From a virus, in IMG/VR virus record IMGVR_UViG_3300019751_000009, positions 1 to 27,971 of that record: a DNA stretch of 27,971 bases. The stretch is one strand, 5' to 3'. Below are positions 1-21,346 of this stretch, in pieces (position 1 is the stretch's first letter; each line of letters starts with the position of its first letter). A program made the translations under genes and the position numbers. The notes beneath the pieces were generated by a model that was not told the origin of the DNA, searched no databases, and saw nothing but the letters and a program-made list of their open reading frames with translations.

Positions 1-194
1 ATTGGTTATTATGAATAGGTATATATGAATCCCTGTATATGACATCGTATCAATGAATTTATTTGTATGAATTGCTGTGTATGTAATGATAGGTATTAAT
101 TCATATATATGTTTGACTCATTCACATGAATTGCTGTGTATGTATTCATATAGATGACCAAGTGAAAGCTGTGTATGAATTCATATATATGTTT
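1..194. repeat. ATGAAT-type repeat cluster upstream of the terminase genes
   Basis: This non-coding stretch holds six forward copies of ATGAAT (11, 25, 53, 67, 126, 175) and three inverted copies (99, 144, 179). Longer units repeat exactly: ATGAATTGCTGTGTATGTA at 67-85 and 126-144, and AATTCATATATATGTTT at 98-114 and 178-194. GCTGTGTATG occurs three times (74, 133, 168), and ATGAATTCAT at 175-184 is a perfect 10-bp palindrome. Two pairs of copies are 14 bp apart (11/25 and 53/67). All reading frames are broken by stops. The position just before terS suggests binding sites for terminase (a packaging start), for a regulator or for a replication initiator, but the sequence does not decide between these. 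Confidence 0.75.
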
Positions 195-345
195 ATCCCT
201 GAAAGAACGATGCCACCCCACCCTTTTTGTACAAAGCATATCCCGGGAAACTAACCCGTGTATAAAATTATTATTTTTTCAACCTAGAGGCCCAGATTCC
301 GGCACACAGATTTCGGCCTAAGAAAATAAAAGTAGGATAATACAC
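195..345. other. Non-coding spacer, no recognised feature
   Basis: No open frame, tRNA or convincing terminator was seen. A small GC-richer island (about 281-320) contains two GGCC-containing arms that could form a 5-bp stem, but its loop is over 20 nt and no U-run follows. The stretch separates the repeat cluster from the promoter and operator-like block before terS. Confidence 0.5.
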
Positions 346-351
346 TTCATA

Positions 352-360
352 TGGTATAAT
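352..360 (+). promoter_or_regulatory. Extended -10 promoter element (upstream copy)
   Basis: TGGTATAAT matches the bacterial extended -10 consensus (TG, one base, TATAAT). The following bases ATTG make a 13-nt block that matches the second element at 488-500 in 12 positions. No good -35 hexamer lies about 17 bp upstream, which is usual for extended -10 promoters. It would drive the rightward late operon starting with terS, with an initiation point near 367. Confidence 0.5.
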
Positions 361-487: not shown

Positions 488-496
488 TGGTATAAT
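488..496 (+). promoter_or_regulatory. Extended -10 promoter element next to the terS start
   Basis: A second TGGTATAAT sits 9 nt before the terS ATG at 506. Transcription would be expected to start about 7 nt downstream of the element, near 503, giving an mRNA with almost no leader. No Shine-Dalgarno sequence precedes the ATG, which fits leaderless translation from this promoter. The similarity to the upstream copy supports a real element rather than a chance AT-rich match. Confidence 0.5.
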
Positions 497-505
497 ACTG
501 AACTT

Positions 506-1093
506 ATGGCAAACAAAGGTACAATTTCTGTAGATTCTGAAGAAGAAATTAGAGAAATAGAAAAAGAATTAGAAGAAGAGCTCCGTTATGCGGTAGCATC
601 TGCTAAAGGTATAGTTCCTGCTGATGCTGTATTAAAGATTGAGCGTAAAAAAGGCAGACCGACTGGTGGACTTAGTGCAGAATCTAAGTCAGCAGGTGGT
701 AAAAAGTCTAGAATCAAAAGAGGACAGACGTATAAACCTACAGATGACGATTATTCTAAAGTAGAAGAGATGGTTACTATAGGATTAGACCAACATACTA
801 TAGCCAAAGTCATGGGTATTAGTAATGCCACACTAAATAAATATTATGCACACAATTTAGCAGTAGGTAAAGAGAAACGCACCGCCCGAGTTGCAGGTGT
901 AGCCTACGAAATGGCAGTCAGTGGGGAATCTCCTAGTATGACTACGTTTTGGTTAAAGACTCAGGCCGGATGGTCTCCGAAACACCACGTTGTTGTAGAA
1001 GATAGACAGTTTGACATACAATGGGCCAGCGATGAGGCTGACATTGCAGACGCAAATCAAATATTAAGGAACAAGGATAGCAAAGTACACTAG
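506..1093 (+). CDS. terS: Terminase small subunit (putative)
   Basis: The 195-aa product is read as the DNA-recognition subunit of the packaging motor. It has an acidic helical N-terminus (about 10-30), a basic linker rich in Lys and Arg (about 47-72), and a helix-turn-helix-like segment at about 83-115 (GLDQHTIAKVMGISNATLNK). A conserved-looking stretch, PSMTTFWLKTQAGW (143-156), follows and is typical of phage small terminases. It directly precedes the large terminase with a 5-nt gap, the usual order. There is no Shine-Dalgarno sequence at the ATG, and an extended -10 lies 9 nt upstream. Small terminases diverge fast, so the call rests on the HTH, the tail motif and the context. Confidence 0.8.
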   Translation: MANKGTISVDSEEEIREIEKELEEELRYAVASAKGIVPADAVLKIERKKGRPTGGLSAESKSAGGKKSRIKRGQTYKPTDDDYSKVEEMVTIGLDQHTIAKVMGISNATLNKYYAHNLAVGKEKRTARVAGVAYEMAVSGESPSMTTFWLKTQAGWSPKHHVVVEDRQFDIQWASDEADIADANQILRNKDSKVH

Positions 1094-1098
1094 TATTT

Positions 1099-2388
1099 AT
1101 GCAAGAGGAGAGGAAATCCATAGTAATTCCCTATACACCTAGGGATTTACAGAAACACTTACATACTAATCTAGATAGATTTAATGTTGTTGTATGTCAC
1201 AGGCGATTTGGTAAGACTGTGTTTGCTATAAACCAGCTCATAAAGAGTTCTGTAGAAGATATACAAGCCGGCAAAAGACAGCCACGCTATGCATACATAG
1301 CACCGCTATTTAAGCAGGCAAAGACAGTAGCATGGGATGAATTAAAAAGATTGTGCTCTGTATTTCCCGAAGTAAAGTTTAACGAGGCAGAACTAAGAGC
1401 CGACTTTATGGGAGCGAGGATACAGCTATACGGTGCAGACAATTACGACACTCTCAGGGGAATTTATTTAGACGGGGTAGTGCTTGATGAGTACGCTCAG
1501 ATGAATCCTAAGATGTTTTCTGAGGTTATAAGACCGGCACTATCAGATAGAAAGGGGTATGCCATATTTATTGGTACACCTAAAGGGAAAAACGAATTTT
1601 ATGATTTATACCACTCAGCACCGGATAGGAAGGGATGGGCCAGATTCTTATATAAGGCGAGTGAAACAGGGATACTAGACGATGAAGAGCTTGAACTTGC
1701 GAAACAAGATATGGCAGAGACTGAATTTGAACAAGAATACGAGTGTTCTTGGTCTGCTGCACTTAGAGGTGCGTATTATGCTAAAGAGATTGAAACTGCT
1801 TATGATGAAGACCGAGTGGGGAAAGTCCCTTATGACCCGTCTAAACAAGTAGTAACAGCATGGGACCTTGGGGTCTCAGACGCAACTAGCATATGGTTCT
1901 GTCAGTTTATAGGTAAAGCAGTACACGTTATAGATTATTATGAAAACTCTAATGAAGGACTGCCTCACTATATAGAGGTACTTAATAGAAAGGGTTATCA
2001 TTATGGTGCACACATAGCACCACACGACATAGTAGTTAGAGAATTTTCTACTGGTAAGTCAAGGCGAGACCTAGCATTTGACCTAGGCATTGACTTCCAA
2101 GTAGCACCAAAGTTAAAAGTTATGGATGGTATTGACACTACCAGAACTTTTTTAAACAAGTGTTGGTTTGATGCAGAAAACACTAAGAAAGGACTAGAAG
2201 CATTACTACAATATAGAAGTAGTTATGATGACAAGAAAAAGATATGGTCACAAAGACCAGTCCACGATTGGACATCACACGCAAGCGATGCGTTCAGGTA
2301 CTTGTGTATAACAGATGTAGTGTTTACAGGTAATGATAGTGTCTGGGGAAGGGAACTCCCTGAGACTGATTTAAGTTGGATAGTATAG
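1099..2388 (+). CDS. terL: Terminase large subunit
   Basis: This 429-aa ATPase-nuclease pumps DNA into the prohead and cuts concatemers. The Walker A variant CHRRFGKT is at 33-40. Walker B GVVLDEY is at 126-132 with D130 and E131. A motif III-like FIGTPKG is at 158-164. The RNase H-like nuclease domain shows the expected acidic residues: D256 in TAWDLG, D310 in HIAPHD, and D397 in SHASDAF. Length is normal for the family. The ATG follows the terS stop by 5 nt without a good ribosome site; an AGAGGAGAGG stretch lies just inside the gene (codons 3-6), but no standard start codon in this frame follows it closely. Confidence 0.96.
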   Translation: MQEERKSIVIPYTPRDLQKHLHTNLDRFNVVVCHRRFGKTVFAINQLIKSSVEDIQAGKRQPRYAYIAPLFKQAKTVAWDELKRLCSVFPEVKFNEAELRADFMGARIQLYGADNYDTLRGIYLDGVVLDEYAQMNPKMFSEVIRPALSDRKGYAIFIGTPKGKNEFYDLYHSAPDRKGWARFLYKASETGILDDEELELAKQDMAETEFEQEYECSWSAALRGAYYAKEIETAYDEDRVGKVPYDPSKQVVTAWDLGVSDATSIWFCQFIGKAVHVIDYYENSNEGLPHYIEVLNRKGYHYGAHIAPHDIVVREFSTGKSRRDLAFDLGIDFQVAPKLKVMDGIDTTRTFLNKCWFDAENTKKGLEALLQYRSSYDDKKKIWSQRPVHDWTSHASDAFRYLCITDVVFTGNDSVWGRELPETDLSWIV

Positions 2389-19399: not shown

Positions 19400-21346
19400 A
19401 TGGCACACAACATATTTCACACTGGAACAGAATGGTTAAGTGACAATGTAATTGACCCTGTTACAAACTATGTAGTTGACAAGGGCACAGACATGTACAT
19501 CAACAACTTAAAGCAAGATTATGTAGATTCAGTTGTAGAAGCGTTTGGTGGGCCAAAGACAATTACTCCAGAGATGGCAGATGCAGGATGGAAGTATGGA
19601 TTAGATGGTGTTCCTTACAATTCTAGCATAGCTATGTTTCCAGAAGATTTTGAAACTGACCCTAACATAACACCTAGACCGGGAGCCATAGGTCCTGATT
19701 TTGTTGCTAATAATACTGCAACTACTTCAGGTCCTTTCTTGTCTCAAGACTTAAGACAACGCACACCATCAGGTACTATATATAACCCAAGCATGGAAGC
19801 GTTTAACAACGCATCTTTGTTTAACTATAAAGGACCGGGTGGAGCTGCTGAGTACACATACGGACAAGGTTTGCCTATGGGTTACGGAACATATGGCACA
19901 CCTCCGGGACCTAATTTATATTATGAGGGACAATTTGGTGAAGGCTATAAAGAATCTCAGGTAGCAGACAATGCTATTAACTTACCTCCTGTAACAATGC
20001 CAGATGGTGTTCCACAAATACCTGCACCTAAACCTACTCAACCTAATATGCCGGGGTTTACTAGCGGTGGCTCTGTTAATGACAAGGTTCAATATGAAAA
20101 TGAAATACTAAACAGTAATGTAGGCTCTGGTTTGAATCCAAACTTTCTTGTTAGCCAAGCTGACCAAGGACCAGACATTGGACTACTTAACTACACAAAC
20201 AACGGAACTGTAAGTGCAGCAGACCAAGCTATATTTGATGCAGCTAAGATGGAAAAATTTAATCCCACTGGTGGTCCTAGTATATATGACACGCAGTATA
20301 CAGTAGGTGCTAACAATGCTATGAGCCCAGTTGGACCTAGTATATATGACACGCAGTATACAGTAGGTGCTAACAATGCTATGTCTCCTATTGGTCCTAG
20401 TATATATGATACTCAGTATACAGTAGGTGCTAACAATGTTATGTCACCTATTGGTCCTAGTATATATGAAACAATGACATCCCCTACAATGCTAGGTGGC
20501 GAAGAACAAGTGTTTGAAGGACCATATAACATGACTGTTAATGATGATGGTACATTTTCTTATGGAAATTCTCAGTCTAATCAAGGTAATTTTGAAACAG
20601 CAAACCAAACAGTAGAAAATGACTCATACATATCAGATTTGCCTATAGTTGAAAGTGACATAAACAACTTAAATATTTTTCAAGACACAGGAGATGAAGA
20701 AGTTGTGATAAGCACTCCTTTAGGAGACTTAACTCAGTCAGACATAGACAATATGGTATCTAATGCTGTAACAATAAACCTTGACCAATCTTATGCTAGT
20801 GACAATTACTCCCCAGCTCCTAAATATGGTCTTGATGAGGCTGTTGTAGACTCAGGAAAATACATATACGATGTTCTTACTTCTGGTAATACTAGTAACG
20901 CTAACGCTGGATTTGTTCAAGCAGTTGCTCCAACAGCAACAACAACTGGTTATGCTGGAAACATACAGATTAATCCATTTACACTTGATATGTCTCCTAG
21001 TGAAATAGCTTATCAAGATGCTGTTGCAAATCCAGTTGTTCAGACTGTTGTAAATCCACAGCCTTTACCTTCTTTTATTAATGAAGACAGTGGAAACCAA
21101 GAAGGAAAAGAAATGTATGAAATGTTTAAAGAAGGATTGCTGGCAGATGACATGATGATTGGCTCAAACTATTTAGGAGTAGATGACAACCCAAAACCAG
21201 CCCCAGTTACAGTTAGTATACCTAGCATATTTAGACCACCAGCTCCTAGACCAACACCAGCACCTACTGTGTTTGCTAGTCCGGGTGGAGCACCGGGATA
21301 TACTAGCTACGGACCTCCCAACTTTCAATTGGTAGGGGGTAGATAA
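19400..21346 (+). CDS. Large low-complexity internal/virion protein with 20-aa tandem repeats
   Basis: The 648-aa product is acidic and rich in Asn, Pro, Gly, Tyr and Thr, with little predicted regular structure. Residues 292-351 are three copies of a 20-aa unit, GPSIYDTQYTVGANNAMSPV, plus a partial fourth. A Pro-rich tail (PPAPRPTPAPTVFASPGGAP) ends the protein. AGGAG lies close before the ATG. No enzyme motif seen. Position among ejection-type genes suggests an internal or ejected virion protein, or a flexible tail component. The family is not recognised. Confidence 0.7.
   Translation: MAHNIFHTGTEWLSDNVIDPVTNYVVDKGTDMYINNLKQDYVDSVVEAFGGPKTITPEMADAGWKYGLDGVPYNSSIAMFPEDFETDPNITPRPGAIGPDFVANNTATTSGPFLSQDLRQRTPSGTIYNPSMEAFNNASLFNYKGPGGAAEYTYGQGLPMGYGTYGTPPGPNLYYEGQFGEGYKESQVADNAINLPPVTMPDGVPQIPAPKPTQPNMPGFTSGGSVNDKVQYENEILNSNVGSGLNPNFLVSQADQGPDIGLLNYTNNGTVSAADQAIFDAAKMEKFNPTGGPSIYDTQYTVGANNAMSPVGPSIYDTQYTVGANNAMSPIGPSIYDTQYTVGANNVMSPIGPSIYETMTSPTMLGGEEQVFEGPYNMTVNDDGTFSYGNSQSNQGNFETANQTVENDSYISDLPIVESDINNLNIFQDTGDEEVVISTPLGDLTQSDIDNMVSNAVTINLDQSYASDNYSPAPKYGLDEAVVDSGKYIYDVLTSGNTSNANAGFVQAVAPTATTTGYAGNIQINPFTLDMSPSEIAYQDAVANPVVQTVVNPQPLPSFINEDSGNQEGKEMYEMFKEGLLADDMMIGSNYLGVDDNPKPAPVTVSIPSIFRPPAPRPTPAPTVFASPGGAPGYTSYGPPNFQLVGGR
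20273..20469 (+). repeat. 60-bp in-frame tandem repeat (3.3 copies)
   Basis: Three full 60-bp units start at 20273, 20333 and 20393, with a 17-bp partial copy at 20453-20469. The first two units are nearly identical apart from a few bases near their 3' ends. The third differs at a few third positions and one Ala to Val change. The unit encodes 20 aa, so copy number can vary without frameshift. Recombination or slippage is the likely origin. Confidence 0.95.

Follow-up and report, generated by a model that had tools for sequence, protein, structure and literature searches.

A swappable repeat array upstream of the terminase genes of uncultivated marine podovirus-like phages: a possible bank of host-protein binding sites

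The window, by which we mean the whole stretch of DNA analyzed here, is a virus record of 27,971 bases classed as linear and without end repeats. It carries the late genes of a podovirus-like phage (TerS of phrog_309, TerL, portal, scaffold and major head protein), and its source is an uncultivated marine podovirus-like phage. The best matches to its TerL in the phage collection are HTVC010P-type pelagiphages (51–54% identical); for TerS, 50,697 phage records held no close relative and six partial matches, all below 42%. The features at the left end of the window are listed in Table 1. The left flank of the repeat array is missing because the contig starts 10 bases before the first motif; in relatives, the sequence to the left of the array consists of a conserved left box followed by early-gene leader sequence. 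The form of the right box is conserved in relatives, and its C-run has a counterpart in cultured pelagiphages. A generic promoter scan made no call at the TATAAT of the rightward promoter-like sequence. The placement of a TATAAT before the terS start codon (window 491–508) recurs in relatives, and the terS message may, judging from the sequence, be leaderless. Far to the right, a 60-bp tandem repeat of in-frame length (20272–20469; 3.3 copies, 92% matches) sits within a 648-aa late protein that has no PHROG match.

Table 1. Features of the terS-upstream cassette and neighboring genes, in window coordinates.
Feature	Position	Strand	Remarks
Left conserved box, truncated by contig start	1..30		TTATTATGAATAGGTATA/TATGAAT
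Predicted left end of terminal repeat	23/24		Aligned contig-start site of relatives
ATGAAT array, direct repeats with 14-bp period	11..194		Two copies each of a 19-mer and the 17-mer AATTCATATATATGTTT
Right box	201..226		GAAAG...CACCCCACCC C-run; CACCC at 214 and 219
Predicted right end of terminal repeat	240..246		Equivalent of the right contig ends of G001 and G002
Conserved AT-rich element TATAAAATTATTATTTTTT	261..279		Unwinding-element-like
TATAAT of rightward promoter-like sequence TATGGTATAAT	355..360	+	Conserved in relatives
TATAAT 9 nt ahead of terS start codon	491..496	+	Read from the sequence only
terS, small terminase subunit	506..1093	+	phrog_309, E 1.8e-11
terL, large terminase subunit	1099..2388	+	phrog_2, E 2.6e-37

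A sequence-only reading of the window had described a dense ATGAAT array upstream of terS, and its particulars were borne out: six direct copies (positions 11, 25, 53, 67, 126 and 175), three inverted copies (ATTCAT at 99, 144 and 179), an exact 19-mer pair (67 and 126), an exact 17-mer pair (98 and 178) and a 10-bp palindrome (ATGAATTCAT at 175). The array also holds CATATATATG at 102 and 182. Comparison with shuffled sequence confirmed that the array is genuine and not a product of chance: none of 2000 dinucleotide shuffles equalled it in number of motif copies (nine), in longest exact repeat (19 bp) or in repeated 12-mer content. The count of the commonest hexamer was a weaker statistic, being equalled in 1.85% of 2000 dinucleotide shuffles. 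The period of the array is 14 bp (lag-14 autocorrelation 0.49, compared with at most 0.45 in 1000 base shuffles). Coding sequence and small RNA were rejected as explanations, since no ORF of at least 60 aa covers the array and no Rfam family matched it at E values up to 1. A search of the phage collection for similar DNA returned a single match, at chance level.

Relatives were gathered by scanning viral contigs for TerL (the best 80 of 215 confirmed loci) and TerS (the best 80 of 188), which gave 95 distinct terS-upstream regions after removal of duplicates, the window included. A common two-box frame was found by pattern in 78 of the 95, and the remaining 17 are mostly cut by contig ends. 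On the left, the frame consists of AATAAAACT..TTATTA..TATATAAA or TATATGAA; on the right, it consists of a G/C box with CACCC, followed by TATAAAATTATTATTTTTT. Between the boxes, the sequence varies from lineage to lineage. By simple and coarse rules of our own, 92 of the regions (the other three being too short) fell into the array classes PAL (21), CCATCC (16), other (14), ATGAAT (11), FUR (11), CGAATAAA (9), DIF (5), GACAGATT (3) and DNAA (2); one region, L116, bears ATGAAT units as well as DnaA-like boxes. Further scans added little to the family. The left-box pattern gave mostly noise among the matches listed in viral contigs, and of those checked only L342 was a new member with both boxes. 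A scan with the cluster-10 early protein gave six loci, none from a new contig, and the best 80 of 219 loci from a scan with a GP88 protein were mostly from more distant phages.

Two other kinds of repeat were noted near the slot. At its left box, L064 carries a 27-bp tandem repeat of at least five copies (positions 1–150). To the left of the slot, perfect palindromes of at least 12 bp are present twice in 8 of 75 loci (L082, L086, L128, L042 and L066/L068/L125/L127), compared with 0 of 75 when each locus was shuffled once. The identical copies are separated by ~130–230 bp, in the neighborhood of the leftward early promoter (~500–750 bp upstream of terS), and their sequence is lineage-specific. 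They may be paired operators in which a change in one copy is matched in the other.

The ATGAAT motif is concentrated in the slot. In a set of 12 ATGAAT-type loci that contains near-duplicates, 3,660 bp of slot hold 55 copies of TATGAAT, compared with 21 in 86,523 bp elsewhere; TCATATATATG has 22 copies in the slot and none elsewhere, and each of the 12 loci has at least one. The sequence-only reading had named conserved ATGAAT spacing as a thing to look for in related phages, and the 14-bp period does recur in several ATGAAT-type lineages. Lag 14 is the strongest in L082, L132, L129 and L080, and leads or ties with lag 28 in L085 and L036; it ranks third in L042 and is absent in L070. Four close relatives retain the array without indels, with 14 of 189 columns variable, compared with 11 of 71 to the right of the array. 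In the same four, motif columns were not significantly more conserved than spacers (p = 0.16). This last result is what one would expect if the array were a functionless, neutral repeat expansion in an AT-rich spacer, as are the plain 27-bp tandem expansion of L064 and the change of array content even within one assembly (the two ends of G002, below). We nevertheless consider neutral expansion very improbable, given that several lineages with dissimilar arrays have this motif and its 14-bp period in common, that the four close relatives keep array length and vary less inside the array than beside it, and that Fur-type and dif-type sites concentrate in the same slot.

Array content changes beside a nearly constant TerS. 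Two relatives, L085 and L086, share 95–99% identity in the 300 bases that precede terS, a match that extends from the right box into the gene, and 31–52% in the 400 bases further left; the array of L085 is of the ATGAAT type and that of L086 is Fur-like. The TerS of both is 96% identical to that of the window, yet their arrays are wholly different. On a TerS DNA tree (92 rows, nine classes), at least 27 class changes are needed, where the minimum is 8 and the shuffled mean is 60.8; the classes are therefore clustered but repeatedly exchanged. Well supported branches of this tree force at least six changes for ATGAAT and at least five for FUR. Thus, TerS is most likely not the specific reader of the array, and the earlier suggestion that the small terminase recognizes these repeats is not supported.

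Array class does track early-gene content within 1.9 kb. Early cluster 4 occurs solely with PAL (14 of 14) and cluster 12 solely with CCATCC (6 of 6); cluster 10 occurs with ATGAAT (7), DIF (3), DNAA (2) and FUR (2). On four early-gene trees, the class changes needed were similar to, or slightly fewer than, those on the TerS tree for matched loci (9 vs. 11, 6 vs. 6, 2 vs. 3 and 2 vs. 3), so by this measure the early arm predicts the array only modestly better than TerS does.

Judged by their sequences, other arrays in the slot resemble sites to which host proteins of bacteria bind. Sites of the Fur type (7-1-7, up to two mismatches) number 36 in 40,992 bp of slot and 21 in 657,535 bp elsewhere, a 27-fold enrichment that drops to 4.4-fold at three mismatches; because near-duplicate loci are included, these figures and those that follow are counts of sites and not of independent events. 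The Fur box was taken as background, like the other consensus motifs, and was not fitted to these data. TTATCCACA, which resembles a DnaA box, is present in four copies in L116 and two in L128, with a spacing of ~11 bp in both. The Xer/dif pattern CGCATAAN6TTATGTTAA has five exact matches in the slot region and none elsewhere (L050 and L066/L068/L125/L127; four of the five loci are near-identical), and these sites have XerC and XerD arms with a 6-bp center, as in chromosomal dif. About half of the classes (CCATCC, palindromes, CGAATAAA, GACAGATT and other) match no host protein that we know of.

The dif-type sites have counterparts in bacterial chromosomes. The 24-mer of the phages was found in two Succinivibrio genomes. 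Of 369 genomes from the class to which Succinivibrio belongs, 54 contain the 26-base Xer pattern, once in each except for one genome with two copies, as expected of dif. The phage center, TTTATC, ends in C, whereas the chromosomal centers listed end in A, except for one Succinivibrio copy that has the phage center; a second Succinivibrio genome, from outside the set of 369, has this center too. In Succinivibrio dextrinosolvens (G054; one copy at L425 4898–4921), there are two Xer sites, with centers TTTATC and TTTATA, perhaps marking an element integrated at dif.

Sites resembling iron-regulator boxes also occur in cultured pelagiphages. Among 12 phage records scanned, the exact Fur-like 15-mer was found only in Greip (L408) and HTVC024P (L139), once in each, in an intergenic region upstream of the terminase genes and adjoining the C-run element. 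An exact palindrome, TTAGAANNNTTCTAA, was found once in each of six of the 12 records (L407, HTVC010P; L409, Lederberg; L426, HTVC100P; L427, HTVC204P; L429, HTVC035P; L430, HTVC203P), every time in the terminase-upstream intergenic region or at the record end next to that region. We take it to resemble the Irr/ICE iron-response box of alphaproteobacteria, which would fit Pelagibacter hosts.

We then looked for a protein that might read the ATGAAT type. Early arms of six ATGAAT-type and ten other loci, some of them incomplete, were compared by ORFs of at least 38 aa. Of the ORF clusters present in at least three of the six ATGAAT arms, none was absent from all ten other arms, and therefore no phage-encoded specific reader was seen in this comparison. 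Such a reader may lie outside the compared ORFs, in the late arm, below 38 aa or in the incomplete arms. Patterns for ARG, PhoB, CRP, LexA and IHF were not enriched over 78 cores, and these proteins were set aside. A TorR-like pattern was enriched (11 matches vs. 0.15 expected), but its spacing is 10 bp and that of the array 14 bp, and TorR was rejected as well. Not one of the regulator motifs tried agrees with a 14-bp spacing. Eight FNR-like matches over the 78 cores trace to L116 and L080. In 369 bacterial genomes, a two-unit ATGAAT pattern gave two weak matches, compared with four for a control pattern, and no array. We infer that a host DNA-binding protein is the likely reader of the ATGAAT array.

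The slot lies where the genome changes direction. In the closest near-complete relative, G045, the directions of the early genes (leftward) and of the late genes (rightward) lead away from the array, and the early arm encodes a DNA polymerase, a primase/helicase, a Cas4-domain exonuclease, a ribonucleotide reductase and a RusA-like resolvase. The locus is the GC-skew minimum of G045; in G045, G001 and G007 the skew changes sign here, and G+C is lowest or near its lowest. As in an iteron-type replication origin, direct repeats (here of 14-bp period) accompany an AT-rich element, which is conserved (261–279). Bound by a phage or host initiator, the array might then be the origin itself and the AT-rich element its unwinding site, and the DnaA-like boxes at ~11-bp spacing in L116 and L128 would agree with this. 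Divergent gene orientation accounts for the skew equally well, however; the DnaA type makes up only 2 of 92 classed regions; no candidate initiator gene covaries with the ATGAAT type among the early ORF clusters of the 6 ATGAAT and 10 other arms; and a DNA polymerase and a primase/helicase are encoded by the phages themselves and are common to all array types. We regard an iteron origin as unlikely, and yet the DnaA-like arrays of two relatives and the GC-skew minimum may point to some origin or control function.

Contig ends are frequent at this locus. Within ~5.1 kb upstream of terS, 55 of the 95 regions are cut by a contig end, and among 400-bp bins the one at 400–800 bp from terS holds the most of these ends, 13 of the 55. 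Twelve contigs begin inside the frame, three of them (L105, L112 and L063) at exactly one aligned nucleotide, which corresponds to 23/24 of the window. L129, for which there is no aligned relative, starts with the same motif as these three; L133 and L061 have a second start in common; and L001, L004, L037, L006, L064 and L106 start elsewhere. (The start of L064 is a tandem repeat, and it was dropped from the terminus argument while still being counted among the 12.) The simulated chance of four starts at one of 260 positions is 1e-5. In a 42-kb contig, G002, each end carries a copy of the cassette (138 and 157 bp), and in G001 the two ends join at the right site, overlapping by 9 bp. Both early-arm contigs with an end inside the frame (G001 and G002, at their right ends) stop 22–27 nt past the start of CACCC. 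This clustering suggests a short terminal repeat, with the genome termini at the cassette.

If so, the cassette could be a direct terminal repeat of the T7 kind (~140–280 bp), and the array itself might serve genome-end formation or packaging, for example as a terminase or concatemer-junction site. The starts at one aligned position, the doubled cassette of G002, the meeting ends of G001 and the similar distance from CACCC all speak for such a repeat. Against it, all 54 virus records checked are classed as linear and lacking end repeats, the fourth of the coinciding starts is that of L129, and the end copies of G002 differ by an indel that removes a Fur-like sequence; microdiversity of the array could by itself break assemblies. 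Two lineage-specific pattern scans, of seven loci each, showed no contig besides G001 ending in the cassette. The array changes while TerS does not, and therefore it need not be a terminase signal even if it lies at a terminus. A role of the array in forming or packaging the ends thus seems rather unlikely to us, if less so than an origin. Of the earlier proposal of a control or packaging site, the analysis supports a locus that acts in cis and is conserved, with genome termini plausibly nearby; it does not support a motif read by TerS. For Skadi, a 125-bp terminal repeat is reported (PMC10504331). Skadi records OP131302 (1–259) and OP131294 (1–1616) begin inside terminase or portal genes, and on that account the 125-bp repeat may be assembler overlap; we set it aside as support for a terminal repeat here.

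Our preferred reading, put forward tentatively, is that the array is a swappable bank of 14-bp host-protein sites between the divergent arms, probably at or in a short terminal repeat, and not read by TerS. The bank would form the variable core of a cassette located where the leftward early and rightward late arms part, and this cassette probably lies at or inside the repeat at the end of a linear genome. Once bound, most likely by a host DNA-binding protein, the array would serve as an operator or a nucleoprotein block that separates the divergent promoters, and it might have such a role at the genome end too. The host protein would vary with the lineage, the sites in the slot being Fur-like, DnaA-like or Xer/dif-like in some phages and those of another protein in the window. 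A bolder form of this idea, which we think improbable, is that arrays for tight-binding host proteins (Fur, DnaA, XerC/D and others) are plugged into a slot at or near the genome ends. The bound host protein would then be a cap or insulator for the genome ends and for the early/late switch, and the phage would read the state of its host, or shield its DNA, by means of a protein that it does not encode.

If host proteins do read these arrays, a fixed slot would record the host factor on which each phage lineage depends. That would open a route to host prediction for uncultivated marine phages and make it possible to test for gating of infection by iron status (Fur), replication state (DnaA) or chromosome segregation (Xer). 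The cassette also gives an assembly-level reason for the frequent contig breaks upstream of terS in these phages. Searches of the open-access portion of the literature on Fur or DnaA boxes and decoys in phages, on iterons or packaging sites upstream of terS, on TATGAAT direct repeats, on podophage terminal repeats and on Irr with Pelagibacter returned nothing alike, which is weak evidence of absence; within that portion, we found no precedent for an interchangeable bank of host-factor arrays at this position.

Several known systems share parts of this arrangement. Packaging sites of the lambda cosB or pac type, which are read by the small terminase, likewise place repeats beside terS and near a G/C-rich box, but here the repeats are wholly different between phages whose TerS is 96% identical. 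Iteron origins of plasmids and phages also combine direct repeats with an AT-rich element at a GC-skew minimum; the present array differs in its 14-bp period, in the lack of a covarying initiator among the arms compared, and in a repeat vocabulary that is swapped among relatives sharing replication genes. T7 and the cyanophage P-SSP7 are podoviruses with short direct terminal repeats, and the contig ends and doubled G002 cassette suggest a repeat of similar length. Unlike theirs, the interior here is hypervariable, with swapped arrays; no record is classed with end repeats, and the termini are deduced from contigs. The HTVC010P-type pelagiphages, the nearest cultured relatives by TerL, have the same divergent early and late genes and a C-run element upstream of the terminase, but not the long arrays: the four regions searched gave short two-copy repeats only. 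Finally, the Pho boxes of cyanophages are host-regulator sites in the regulatory regions of marine phages. In common with them, the cassette would be a phage regulatory region with (predicted) sites for host transcription factors; in contrast to them, the sites come as arrays at a single fixed position, and close relatives differ in the factor implied.
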